This document shows, piece by piece, positions 26,735 through 61,022 of a stretch of DNA of 64,000 bases. The notes below the pieces were generated by a model, which did not search any database, was not told the DNA's origin, and saw only the letters and a list, made by a program, of their open reading frames with translations. Within the stretch, counting starts at the first letter, position 1. The number at the start of each line of letters is the position of its first letter. Source of the stretch: Methanothrix sp. (GTDB lineage Archaea > Halobacteriota > Methanosarcinia > Methanotrichales > Methanotrichaceae); NCBI GenBank assembly GCA_029907715.1, contig JARYLI010000003.1, forward strand, positions 62,001 to 126,000, written 5' to 3'. Both the position numbers and the translations under genes were made by a program.

Positions 26735-26787
26735 CATTGTTCCCTTCTCTATATACAAGCGTCGCTCGATGTTTGTATATTTTTATT

Positions 26788-26902
26788 TATAGTTCTTTGC
26801 GCCACTTCATGTAAATCCATTTAAAAGCTACTGGATATGTCATACTTTATAGATTATTTTATGTGATATGTTATATTATATCAACTTATGCGGAATACTA
26901 TA
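26788..26902 (+). mobile_element. Beta-type AT-rich miniature element, copy 2
   Basis: A 115-bp block from TATAGTTCTTTGCGCCACTT to TTATGCGGAATACTATA. It is almost identical to 52238-52351 and is the reverse complement of 11271-11384. The ends form an imperfect inverted repeat (TATAGT). The remaining parts of the gap 26735-27053 show no gene. Confidence 0.88.
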
Positions 26903-32552: not shown

Positions 32553-32631
32553 GGGAATCACATCCCGGCTCATGTGGTTGAATCATCAAAGAGTTGAACT
32601 CTGGCAAACCAACGTCAACCAACCATACAGC

Positions 32632-32747
32632 GTATTTGCTCAATATCGTGAGCGTGCTTGAGTTGCTGATCGAGTGGAGCCGCTATGGCACAGTCGTTCA
32701 AGAAATCTGTTGAGAGAGGAGCTCACATCAACGTATTGAGCATGTTC
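32632..32747 (+). mobile_element. Delta-type miniature element, copy 1
   Basis: A 116-bp element bounded by GTATTTGCTCAATAT and GTATTGAGCATGTTC, whose inner parts TGCTCAATA/TATTGAGCA are inverted repeats. Very similar copies are at 33916-34031 (inverted), 55834-55952 and 58390-58513 (inverted). It has no ORF. It occupies most of the 32553-32870 gap. Confidence 0.85.
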
Positions 32748-32870
32748 GATCCGCTGAATCACGGGGATGAACCGACGCCATTTTTGTGCCCAGAGGATGA
32801 ATGCCGCAGGCCGTAGCTGCTGAAAGTGCGCTCTTGACCAGATATGCAAAACCCCCTTGCACGCCTGCAA

Positions 32871-33403: not shown

Positions 33404-33515
33404 AAAGAACTCCTCCTGCCAGACCTGCTGGCGCTAATACAAATTTAATCTTTCTCTCGACATGGTGCGAGCATCTCCACAGACAGCGCCGGCCGGAAAC
33501 ACATTCTGCCTCATA

Positions 33516-33616
33516 TGCTGTGTTGAATAATTAATACTTAAAAGGTCGATCGCTATCGATTTTTGTACGAATTGAAGCACTGCCACCAGATTCTCAAGCA
33601 TTATTCAACAAAGCAG
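33516..33616 (-). mobile_element. Gamma-type miniature element, copy 1
   Basis: A 101-bp element with 16-bp terminal inverted repeats, TGCTGTGTTGAATAAT and ATTATTCAACAAAGCA (one mismatch). The inside (GGTCGATCGCTATCGATTTT) matches the reverse complement of the copies at 60863-60978 and 52005-52364. Confidence 0.88.
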
Positions 33617-33644
33617 CCTCAGGCAGATCAGATCCAGAATCACA

Positions 33645-33915: not shown

Positions 33916-34031
33916 GAACATGCTCAATACGTTGATGCGAGCTCCTCTCTCAACAGATTTCTTGAATGACTGTGCCATATCGGCTCCACTCGATCAGCAA
34001 CTCAAGCACGCTCACGATATTGAGCAAATAC
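33916..34031 (-). mobile_element. Delta-type miniature element, copy 2
   Basis: Reverse-oriented counterpart of 32632-32747: GAACATGCTCAATAC at the left and ATATTGAGCAAATAC at the right. The inner GATTTCTTGAATGACTGTGC is close to the reverse complement of the first copy. The two copies face each other across the OB-fold and Zn-knuckle genes. Confidence 0.85.
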
Positions 34032-34138
34032 ACTTCAGAGTATTCCTATTAACCCCCATTTCTACGATCTGCCCATGTCGCTAAGTAATTGTATAGATGC
34101 TGTTTTATATCAAAAAAGCATGTTTTTAGGGATCCTCT

Positions 34139-35229: not shown

Positions 35230-36438
35230 TTACCTCGGATCTGTGAGGAGAAGCATGTGGTGCAGCTTGTCCCTCTTCGTCTCGAGGTAGTGCCTGTTGA
35301 TCTCGTTCGGCTCGACCTCGAGGGGGACCCGCTCCACTATCTCCAGCCCGTATCCCTGCAGGCCCACGATCTTCCTGGGGTTGTTTGTCAGGAGCCTTAT
35401 TTTTCTTATCCCCAGATCCAGGAGTATCTGGGCGCCTATCCCGTAGTCCCTCAGATCCGCGGGATATCCAAGCCTGTGGTTCGCCTCGACCGTATCGCTG
35501 CCGCCGTCCTGGAGCTCGTAGGCCCTAAGCTTGTTCGCAAGACCTATCCCGCGCCCCTCCTGGTTCATGTAAACCAGAACACCATTTCCGTTTCTGCTTA
35601 TCATCCGCAGCGCCCTGCTCAGCTGCTCGCCGCAGTCGCACCTCTTCGACCTGAACGTGTCCCCTGTGAGACACTGCGAGTGCACCCTGACAAGGGCATC
35701 ATCCGCTGCGGGATCGCCGGCCACAAGAGCAACATGACACTGCCCATCGAGCATGCTCTCGTACCCTATGGCCCTGAAATCGCCGTATTCAGTGGGCATC
35801 TCTACCTCTGCGATTCTTCTTACAAGCCGCTCCCTTCTGATCCTGTATCTTATCAGATCCTCGATGGTCACCATCCTGAGACCGTGCTTCTCCGCGAACC
35901 TCTCGAGCTCCGGAAGGCGCGCCATGGTGCCGTCCTCAGCCATGATCTCGCATATCACGCCCGCCGGATAGAGACCTGCGAGACGAGCCAGGTCCACCGC
36001 AGCCTCTGTATGCCCCGCCCGCCTCAGGACTCCGCCGTCGAGCGCCTGGAGTGGGAATGTGTGTCCGGGAGTCGCGAGGTCTGCGCGTGTTGTGGATGGG
36101 TCTATCAGCGTCCTGATCGTCGTCGCGCGATCGAACGCCGAGATTCCGGTGGTGACACCCCGTCTGGCATCTACCGATACCGTGAACGCAGTTCCCATGC
36201 TCTCCGTGTTCTGCTGCGTCATCATCGGGAGCTCCAGCTGGCGGATGCGCTCGGCGGTGAGCGGAACGCAGATCAGGCCGCGTGCATGTTTCGCCATGAA
36301 GTTGATGGCCTCCGGCGTGACCTTCTCAGCGGCCATCACCAGATCTCCCTCGTTCTCCCTTGATTCATCATCCAGCACTATCACGAACTTTCCATCGCGA
36401 ATGTCCTTTATCGCCTCATCCACTGTAGAGAAAGGCAT
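35230..36438 (-). CDS. ribBA: Bifunctional DHBP synthase / GTP cyclohydrolase II (RibBA)
   Basis: A 402-residue fusion supplying both riboflavin precursors. The N-terminal RibB part has [16 protein letters not shown] and [19 protein letters not shown]. The C-terminal GTP cyclohydrolase II part has [20 protein letters not shown] (Zn cysteines), [16 protein letters not shown] and [17 protein letters not shown] cyclohydrolase II is the bacterial solution; most archaea use the ArfA/GCHIII route, so transfer from bacteria is likely. Start: ATG 36438 ([10 protein letters not shown]); the frame is open to 36525 but not conserved. A 398-residue frame on the opposite strand is only a shadow. Confidence 0.95.
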
Positions 36439-36594
36439 GATACTGCGGAGGTGGTGAAAAATACTTAAACTCTTGGGAGGTCCCCGAAAGACGGAATTCT
36501 GAGATTCTTTGTGCGTGCACATCATTCACAGGTTCGAGCCCGCAACCGAGAACAATTGCGTGTTTTGTGGCATGTTCCAGACCCTCAGATCTGA

Positions 36595-45906: not shown

Positions 45907-46031
45907 CGCTCTTATGTCTTTGGCAACTTGCGGGTCGTGCAATATGGCTGCTGAACGCACTTATTCATTTACCTGGAATGCACAGCAAGCCCAGTGCTTC
46001 TATTGGGCAAGTTAACATATGGATAAGAGCG
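45907..46031 (+). mobile_element. Alpha miniature element with 8-bp target duplication
   Basis: A 125-bp element with CGCTCTTAT / ATAAGAGCG ends. TGAGCGTT occurs immediately on both sides (45899-45906 and 46032-46039), a perfect duplication. The internal GGCTGCTGAACGCACTTATTC is the core seen in other copies. Confidence 0.93.
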
Positions 46032-46165: not shown

Positions 46166-46609
46166 ATGAGAGTTATATGTGATGCACTGCTCCTGATGGT
46201 GGTTTTATCCGCAATGATGCTCACAGCCTCGTCTCAGGAGGACTCGCAGGTTGCCCAGGGATACGATGTGGATCAGTACTTCAAGCAGAAGCCGACATAT
46301 GATATACAGCAGTTCGTCAGAACCAGGGATGCATACGATGTTGAGATGTACTTCAGACAGAAGCCGCTTTATGATGTGCAGGCATATTTCAAGCAGAAGC
46401 CAACATATGACATTCAGCAGTTCGTCAGGACCAGAGATATATACGATGTTGAGATGTACTTCAGACAGAAGCCGCTTTATGATGCGCAGGCATATTTCAA
46501 GCAGAAGCCAACATATGACATTCAGCAGTTCGTCAGGACCAGGGATACATACGACATAAGGCAGTACTCAACAAATCCTCCATACCATACAGTTCCAACA
46601 AGCCCTTAG
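46166..46609 (+). CDS. Secreted protein built of nine 12-residue repeats
   Basis: 147 residues: a signal peptide (ALLLMVVLSAMMLTASS), then a tandem 12-mer with consensus Y-D-[VI]-x-x-[YF]-[FV]-[KR]-x-[KR]-[PD]-x. Examples are YDVDQYFKQKPT, YDIQQFVRTRDA and YDVEMYFRQKPL. Three 12-mers make a higher-order 36-residue (108-bp) unit repeated nearly unchanged in DNA, so expansion was recent. Alternating hydrophobic/aromatic and charged residues would form stacked beta-strands, as in functional amyloids or sheath proteins. GGAGG lies exactly 8 nt before the ATG at 46166. No family was recognised. Confidence 0.85.
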   Translation: MRVICDALLLMVVLSAMMLTASSQEDSQVAQGYDVDQYFKQKPTYDIQQFVRTRDAYDVEMYFRQKPLYDVQAYFKQKPTYDIQQFVRTRDIYDVEMYFRQKPLYDAQAYFKQKPTYDIQQFVRTRDTYDIRQYSTNPPYHTVPTSP

Positions 46610-49029: not shown

Positions 49030-49083
49030 CGCTCTTTGTGTTTGGCAACTTAGAGGCTGTGTGGTCTGGCTGCTGTAATCATT
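49030..49083 (+). mobile_element. Truncated alpha element
   Basis: Left half of an alpha copy (CGCTCTTTGTGTTTGGCAAC to CTGCTGTAATCATTCA). It directly abuts the CGCTCT of a second alpha copy, whose end was later used as an insertion site. Confidence 0.75.
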
Positions 49084-49091
49084 CACGCTCT

Positions 49092-49214
49092 CGCTCTTAT
49101 GTATTCAGCAACTTGAAGGTCATGCGGTAGGTTGCTGAATGCATTCATCCGCTCGCCACAAGCGCATAGCTTGACTGGTGTCTCTTCGGGCAAGTTATCA
49201 GATGGATAAGAGCG
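49092..49214 (+). mobile_element. Alpha miniature element inserted into another alpha copy
   Basis: A full 123-bp copy flanked by CACGCTCT on both sides (49084-49091 and 49215-49222). The duplicated target is itself the terminal CGCTCT of an older alpha copy, whose remainder continues at 49223. Confidence 0.92.
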
Positions 49215-49277
49215 CACGCTCTTTATGTGCGCAGCAACTTGCATGCAATGTGGTCGCTGAAAGCATTCATTGCCATG
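49215..49277 (+). mobile_element. Truncated alpha element (host of the insertion)
   Basis: CGCTCTTTATGTGCGCAGCA to AAAGCATTCATTGCC is the left half of an alpha copy very similar to 52066-52125. Its right half is replaced by the palindromic epsilon sequence at 49278. Confidence 0.8.
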
Positions 49278-49307
49278 CCTTCGACTACGTCGAAGGTAAG
49301 TCGAAAC
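49278..49307. repeat. Epsilon palindromic repeat (TTCGAC type)
   Basis: CCTTCGAC/GTCGAAGG forms a perfect 8-bp hairpin with a 3-nt loop, followed by TAAGTCGAAAC. Related sequences sit inside alpha copies at 52505-52581 and 56172-56200. Confidence 0.75.
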
Positions 49308-51947: not shown

Positions 51948-52065
51948 GGACGAACACCTGTGAGTACTACCGAATAGAGAGTATTAAGACTTTTCCAGGC
52001 AGAGGGTGTGTTGAATGATGTTTGAGAATCTGACTGCATAGACCCAATTCATACAAATTGTAATT

Positions 52066-52188
52066 CGCTCTTATGTGCGTAGCAACTTGCAGAGCATGCA
52101 ATGTGGTCGCTGAAAGCATTCATTCATCGAAACGAACGCATAGCATGACCCCTGCTCCTTTGGGAAAGTCATCAAATGGATAAGAGCG
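52066..52188 (+). mobile_element. Alpha element inside gamma, 8-bp duplication
   Basis: A 123-bp copy flanked by TTGTAATT on both sides (52058-52065, 52189-52196). The intact gamma copy shows the target region once (ACAAATTACAATTATAG), confirming the insertion. Confidence 0.93.
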
Positions 52189-52237
52189 TTGTAATTATAG
52201 TAAAAATCGATAGTTTTCGACCTTTTAGGTCTTAATC

Positions 52238-52351
52238 ATAGTTCTTTGCGCCACTTCATGTAAATCCATTTAAAAGCTACTGGATATGTCATACCTTATA
52301 GATTATTTTATGTGATATGTTATATTATATCAACTTATGCGGAATACTATA
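52238..52351 (+). mobile_element. Beta element inside gamma, copy 3
   Basis: ATAGTTCTTTGCGCCACTTC to CTTATGCGGAATACTATA. It is nearly identical to 26788-26902 and is embedded between the CTTAATC and TATTCAACG parts of gamma. Confidence 0.9.
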
Positions 52352-52435
52352 TTCAACGCAGCACAGGCAGATTGATTCGATGGTTATCACATCTGGCTCA
52401 AAGGCGTTCCTCCTCCCCCTAAACTTATACAGATT

Positions 52436-52636
52436 CGCTATTTTGTATTCAGCAATCTGGAGGTCGCGCAGGGAGGTTGCTGAACGCACTCATCCCTCGC
52501 TGGGCCTTCGACTACATCGAATGATTTCGACAGTTTTGACTTCGCCGAAACTCTTCGACGCAGTCGAAGATAAGTCGAAACGAGCGCATGGCAGGAGAAG
52601 TGCCTCGCCGGGCAGGTTATCGGATGTATGAGAGTG
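52436..52636 (+). mobile_element. Alpha element carrying an epsilon insertion, 8-bp duplication
   Basis: A 201-bp copy whose ends have drifted (CGCTATTTT / ATGAGAGTG). The flanks TACAGATT (52428-52435, 52637-52644) are still a perfect duplication. About 77 bp of TTCGAC-rich palindromic sequence (52505-52581) sits in its middle. The rest of the 51948-52925 interval has no gene. Confidence 0.88.
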
Positions 52637-55816: not shown

Positions 55817-55833
55817 CCTGTGTTGCCACATGC

Positions 55834-55952
55834 GTATTTGCTCAATATGGTGGGCGTGCTTGAGGTACCGATCAAGTGAAGCTGCTATGGCAGAGTCGTT
55901 CATCCAGAGATCCGTCGAGATGGCAATTTAGCCCAACGTATTGAGCATGTTC
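55834..55952 (+). mobile_element. Delta-type miniature element, copy 3
   Basis: GTATTTGCTCAATATGGTGG at the left and ACGTATTGAGCATGTTC at the right; the interior (CAAGTGAAGCTGCTATGGCA) matches 32632-32747 in the same orientation. Confidence 0.85.
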
Positions 55953-56116: not shown

Positions 56117-56269
56117 CGCTCTTATCCATCTGTTAACTTGTTGAAGAGGTACTTCTCCTGCCATGCGCTCTTTTCGACTTATCTTCGACTGCGTTGAAGG
56201 CCTGGCGAGGGATGAGTGCGTTCAGCAACCTCCCTGCATGACCTCCAGGTTGCTTAATACAAAAGAGCG
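56117..56269 (-). mobile_element. Alpha element with epsilon insertion and 8-bp duplication
   Basis: A 153-bp reverse copy flanked by GACGCAAA on both sides (56109-56116, 56270-56277). An extra TTCGACTTATCTTCGACTGC segment (56172-56200) accounts for the added length. Confidence 0.92.
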
Positions 56270-58386: not shown

Positions 58387-58389
58387 ATC

Positions 58390-58513
58390 GAACATGCTCA
58401 ATACGTTGAGGTAAATTGCCCTATGGGAGTATTTCTGGATGAACGACTATGCCCGATGATAGCGGCTTCACTTGATCAGTAACTCAAGTACGCTCACGAT
58501 ATTGAGCAAATAC
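58390..58513 (-). mobile_element. Delta-type miniature element, copy 4
   Basis: GAACATGCTCAATAC at the left and ATATTGAGCAAATAC at the right, inverted relative to the copies at 32632 and 55834. It ends 21 nt from the rfcS stop. Confidence 0.85.
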
Positions 58514-60779: not shown

Positions 60780-60862
60780 TTCAGTAATTGGCATCACGAC
60801 ATGGGATCACGAATCCTTGTGATCACATGCTGTAGACCTCAATGACGAATTGGGATTTTATC

Positions 60863-60978
60863 TGTTGTGTTGAATAATGTTTGAGAATCCTATAGCAGAG
60901 ACTCACTTCATACAAATTACAATTATAGTAAAAATCGATAGCGATCGACATTTTATGTCACAATTATTCAACGCAGCA
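60863..60978 (+). mobile_element. Gamma miniature element, copy 3 (uninterrupted)
   Basis: TGTTGTGTTGAATAAT at the left and ATTATTCAACGCAGCA at the right are inverted repeats. The interior CAAATTACAATTATAGTAAA is the reference for the interrupted copy at 52005. It ends 45 nt before the afpA ATG. Confidence 0.88.
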
Positions 60979-61022
60979 ATTTTATCGAAAATTTTATGCA
61001 GATCCTGAGCTTCGTGTATATC

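Follow-up and report, generated by a model that had tools for sequence, protein, structure and literature searches.

Copies of three MITE families, here called alpha, beta, and gamma, are nested at a single locus of the archaeon Methanothrix sp., and it is almost certain that these are non-autonomous elements, two of them inserted into the third, which would have been moved in trans by the transposases of related insertion sequences (IS). The locus lies in a window of 64,000 nucleotides, which corresponds to C3:62001-126000 of genome G000 (2.0 Mb, 55 contigs). A gamma element would first have entered the target CAGGCAGA, once this lineage had separated from the closest sister sampled; within that gamma, TTGTAATT would later have received an alpha element and a TA of the right inverted repeat a beta element, in either order. 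The movers would have been transposases of the IS5 family (alpha and gamma) and the IS630 family (beta), or copies of them since lost. This reading is built on observed element boundaries, target duplications, an empty site, copy numbers, and IS5 and IS630 elements with matching ends and duplication types. Two observations count against it, namely that the left dinucleotide of beta is CA here instead of TA, and that assembled G000 has no intact transposase for these families.

Architecture of the Nested Locus

The interrupted gamma element occupies positions 52004-52363 on the + strand, in three pieces (52004-52065, 52189-52236, and 52350-52363) that amount to 116 bp when each duplication is counted once, and is bounded by the target-site duplication CAGGCAGA at 51996-52003 and 52364-52371. 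The alpha element within it (123 bp, 52066-52188, ends CGCTCTTATG...GATAAGAGCG; profile match 1-124, E 2e-32) lies between two copies of TTGTAATT, at 52058-52065 and 52189-52196. The beta element (111 bp, 52239-52349, TAGTTCTTTGCG...TGCGGAATACTA; profile match 1-111, E 1.3e-33) is preceded by CA at 52237-52238, where nearly all other beta copies have TA, and followed by TA at 52350-52351, in the gamma right inverted repeat. Both inserts and their target duplications also read on the + strand, and a large pentapeptide-repeat gene starts about 57 bp downstream of the nest. Because beta cuts the right inverted repeat, the nested gamma would hardly be mobile as a unit any more.

Three other copies in the window serve for comparison: an intact gamma at 60863-60978 on the + strand, lying between two copies of the duplication ATTTTATC; on the opposite strand, a shorter gamma at 33516-33614, found by profile search; and a second, un-nested beta at 26790-26900 on the + strand (match 26783-26902), 98% identical to the nested one. 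The initial annotation had proposed that alpha and beta were inserted into a pre-existing gamma, and this proposal holds. In a MAFFT alignment of 51990-52385, 60850-61000, and the reverse complement of 33500-33630, gamma flanks both inserted blocks on both sides, and a gamma match confined to one side, which would speak against nesting, was not seen. The blocks themselves are alpha and beta copies of kinds found independently elsewhere in the window. When both inserts and one duplication copy each are taken out, the remaining pieces add up to one gamma length (62 + 40 + 14 = 116 bp), and the rejoined sequence aligns with the intact gamma without a gap (97/116 identical; alignment score 78 vs. 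a maximum of 2 among 1000 shuffles). The structure annotated initially at 52005-52364 thus stands, with its position shifted by one base, to 52004-52363.

Three multi-copy elements in a 55-contig assembly are the kind of material in which a short-read assembler may misjoin repeats, but an assembly artefact is very improbable here. A mis-join would not create 8-bp duplications that match around gamma and around alpha, and would not leave exactly one gamma length once the inserts are removed, and the unique flanks on both sides match an orthologous empty site in the sister genome.

Empty Sites, Host Range, and Timing

Six Methanothrix genomes were compared, namely G000 itself and G001-G005, of which G005 is the nearest sampled sister. 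The orthologous site of G005 reads ...TTTTCCAGGCAGAGTGATACGACAG..., with a single CAGGCAGA and without gamma, alpha, or beta, in flanks that are 92-94% identical. The boundaries that the initial annotation had drawn from the nesting alone agree with this empty site. The site is also unoccupied in G001, G002, G003, and G004. In addition, G005 is empty opposite the gamma at 60863 (ATATTATC, one copy) and opposite the alphas at 45907, 46841, and 49092. The last of these belongs to an alpha-in-alpha arrangement at 49030-49278, in which an outer alpha common to G005 is split by a new inner alpha (49092-49214, duplication CACGCTCT) that is absent from G005.

These pre-insertion sites bear on the possibility that the blocks arrived by recombination between repeats, through gene conversion or segmental duplication, and not by transposition. 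One-sided gamma-alpha junctions of the kind that rearrangement would yield do occur elsewhere (C7:46228, C1:171671, and C18:8332), but at the present locus both sides are present, the target duplications have the length found at unrelated sites, and the sister genomes hold the pre-insertion site as a single copy. At this locus recombination is scarcely credible, as those duplications together with the empty site refute it.

Transposition being retained, the empty orthologous sites imply that gamma came in once the G005 lineage had split off, and alpha and beta later still; precise excision in all relatives is the less likely alternative to such a late entry. Since this gamma copy arrived after the nearest sister had diverged, alpha, beta, and gamma would have been active in overlapping recent periods. 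As to host range, every one of the six genus genomes carries alpha, five of them carry beta, and 20 further genomes of the family and class all lack alpha. An exact 27-base alpha pattern, searched in about 85,000 genomes, matched only Methanothrix sp. contigs and one Euryarchaeota MAG.

Size, Ends, and Target Duplications of the Three Families

DNA searches of G000 returned 34 gamma, at least 46 alpha, and 43 beta matches, and a profile search of 266 kb of collected G000 sequence hit alpha 88 times, beta 40 times, and gamma 35 times. From the genome searches and the collected stretches together, the copies or pieces in G000 number at least 88 for alpha, about 43 for beta, and 29 for gamma, the last figure being hits after pieces were merged by hand. 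The seed sets, which were picked from the strongest matches, have a mean pairwise identity of 0.84 (gamma), 0.79 (alpha), and 0.92 (beta).

The consensus lengths are 124 bp (alpha), 111 bp (beta), and 116 bp (gamma). The terminal inverted repeats are TGCTGTGTTGAATAAT / ATTATTCAACACAGCA in gamma, CGCTCTTAT / ATAAGAGCG in alpha, and TAGT / ACTA in beta, and the target duplications measure 8 bp for gamma and alpha and 2 bp for beta. Among full-length copies, tallied by eye, the 8-bp duplication of alpha matches at 8/8 positions in 25 of 55 and at 7/8 in 10 more (35/55 in total), and that of gamma at 8/8 in 7 of 14 and at 7/8 in 4 more (11/14 in total); for beta, TA flanks both ends in 32 of 36 copies, and TG in one. 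All three families are thus multi-copy elements of 111-124 bp (<500 bp) that carry no transposase gene and have both terminal inverted repeats and target-site duplications. They are three MITE families.

Their intergenic location, sometimes near gene starts, might instead suggest selected functional elements, such as structured RNA genes or regulatory sites. However, Rfam yields no family match at the locus at gathering scores, and copies, many of which the sister genome lacks, are scattered over unrelated sites and bear the scars of transposition, so a selected function is exceedingly unlikely.

Probable Transposase Partners

The alpha partner is a 1269-bp element at C12:3598-4866 of G000, with alpha halves at both ends and, between them, an IS5-family transposase interrupted by stops (NF033581, 185.5 bits; cut-off 140); it is the only transposase of its kind found among the six genus genomes. 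The gamma partner is intact in G002, as a 988-bp IS5 element that has the ends TGCTGTGTTGGATAA, is flanked by the duplication CATAGAGT, and contains an open frame of 300 codons. It occurs there in nine copies, all with an identical 289-aa transposase (IS5 family, NF033579, 250.8 bits; cut-off 140), and contig ends of G005 carry fragments of this transposase whose first 30 residues are 100% identical. The beta partner, intact in G004, is a 1114-bp IS630 element with ends TATAGTCTTACGC (also given as TATAGTCTTACGCTAAACTTAATATAATA) / TATAGTTATCCGCATAACT, which are comparable with the beta right end TATAGTATTCCGCATAAGTTGATATAATA, similar and not identical. Its transposase (IS630 family, NF033545, 192.3 bits; cut-off 100) is present in G000 as a truncated remnant only, on contig C6. 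All three families therefore have a candidate autonomous partner, and the assignments follow partner transposases above their curated cut-offs and, for beta, the TA target as well. Judged by sequence, alpha and gamma are classed as IS5-type MITEs, each from a different subgroup, and beta as an IS630-type MITE.

Several other candidates were rejected. An ISL3 origin of alpha had been considered from its CGCTCTT ends and 8-bp duplication; PF01610 has no match in G000 and does match in control genomes, and the element with alpha ends carries an IS5-type transposase. The IS630 copy at C7:65729 is the parent neither of beta nor of the TGCTCAATAT... repeat, being itself bounded by GTGCTCCATAAC-like ends and merely inserted in that repeat. 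Neither an 872-bp IS5-like element (ends GGGTGTGTCTA) nor one of IS1634-like type has matching ends, and for a beta-like left end at C1:1057337 of G002, considered as an autonomous beta, a second end was not found.

In assembled G000 no intact transposase was found for alpha (stops), beta (truncated remnant), or gamma (absent), and multi-copy elements are often lost from assemblies of this kind. Because of this, the mobilizing source is inferred from relatives or decayed copies.

Nesting in the Rest of the Genome

Two-sided insertions of alpha in gamma are found at the window locus, C1:47583, C1:161793, C8:63016, and C12:35691 (the last imprecise), and those of beta in gamma at the window locus, C12:7652, C2:88840, C2:166303, and C2:251479. 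The window copy at 52004-52363 is the only gamma struck by both. A beta lies within an alpha at C2:94016-94126, an alpha within a beta at C15:30046-30170 (duplication ATAGTCCT, 8/8), and an alpha within an alpha at C3:111092. The initial annotation had read the nest as ordering the families in time; this is not supported. What the locus orders is events at one site, and for these three copies only, the evidence supports gamma before alpha and gamma before beta; elsewhere, alpha-in-beta and beta-in-alpha both occur.

By a rough estimate based on ORF-defined non-coding DNA, the five alpha-in-gamma cases compare with 0.9-1.5 expected in intergenic DNA and the five beta-in-gamma cases with 0.4-0.8. 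No gamma was seen inside alpha or beta, where about two would be roughly expected from 29 gamma copies, which is a weak signal. The modest excess of alpha and beta insertions in gamma may be due to A+T-rich targets. Three of the five beta insertions used the TA of the gamma inverted repeat (GAATAAT), and beta hits on this common TA are seen at C12:7652, C2:166303, window position 52239, and C28:5235. A bolder reading combines two claims: that three families moved recently without an intact matching transposase in the assembled genome, implying cross-mobilization or short-lived re-infection by autonomous copies, and that beta prefers the TA of gamma inverted repeats, one MITE family thereby disabling another. 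We regard this combination as rather doubtful.

Other Repeats and Features

Alpha variants with extra internal sequence near alpha position 61 lie at 52436-52635 and 56117-56269; the extra sequence, TTCGACT...AGTCGAAG, spans about 78 bp at 52497-52573 and may mark either a sub-family or an additional insertion. Another repeat family, whose ends are GTATTTGCTCAATAT / GAACATGCTCAATACGTTGAG, is found at 32629-32750, 33916-34034, 55832-55952, and 58387-58513, and is itself targeted by beta (C1:83836, C1:153008, and C16:30580) and by the IS630 element at C7:65729. The repeated sequence ACATGTGTAGAATTGGACTTAATAGTCTTATC is a recurrent alpha target in G000, with duplications TTGGACTT and AAGTCCAA (C5:69486, C2:74555, C1:52456, and C12:170). 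In the window, a 108-bp unit occurs in three tandem copies, 70-87% identical, at 46262-46585. An Rfam match to V_AS9 (Vibrio RNA AS9) at 36238-36341 (56.6 bits vs. a gathering score of 50) lies on the opposite strand of a ribB/ribA-type gene (35230-36525), and is probably coding similarity and not RNA.

Comparison With Known Systems

In the literature searched, a description of Methanothrix MITEs was not found, and Methanosaeta goes unmentioned in PMC3852290. That source lists IS5-derived MITEs in other methanogenic archaea, for example of 140 bp and 24 copies in M. acetivorans and of 147 bp in M. barkeri (PMC3852290, Table 4). Alpha and gamma resemble these in being short and non-coding, with the inverted repeats of an IS5-family element and moderate to high copy numbers, but differ in sequence, in host, and in the 8-bp duplications seen in many copies. 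Similarly, beta shares IS630-type ends, short length, and lack of coding capacity with IS630-derived MITEs; that of M. mazei, however, has 89 bp and 5 copies with no duplication listed (PMC3852290, Table 4), whereas beta has 111 bp, about 43 copies in G000, and a clear TA target.

The ends of these three Methanothrix MITE families are now known to the base, together with their target rules and their probable transposase partners, and the orthologous empty site dates the nest to a time when the nearest sampled species had already diverged. The locus is a good worked example for testing how methanogen MITEs are mobilized, and leaves general ideas on mobile elements unchanged. Nested, or "Russian doll," insertions of IS and MITEs are a routine case (PMC3852290), and the present nest is likewise a mobile element within a mobile element, but one that differs in bringing three families together at one site whose unoccupied state is known in five relatives. 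Overall, alpha, beta, and gamma are new families, whereas IS5- and IS630-type methanogen MITEs and nested insertion were already known.
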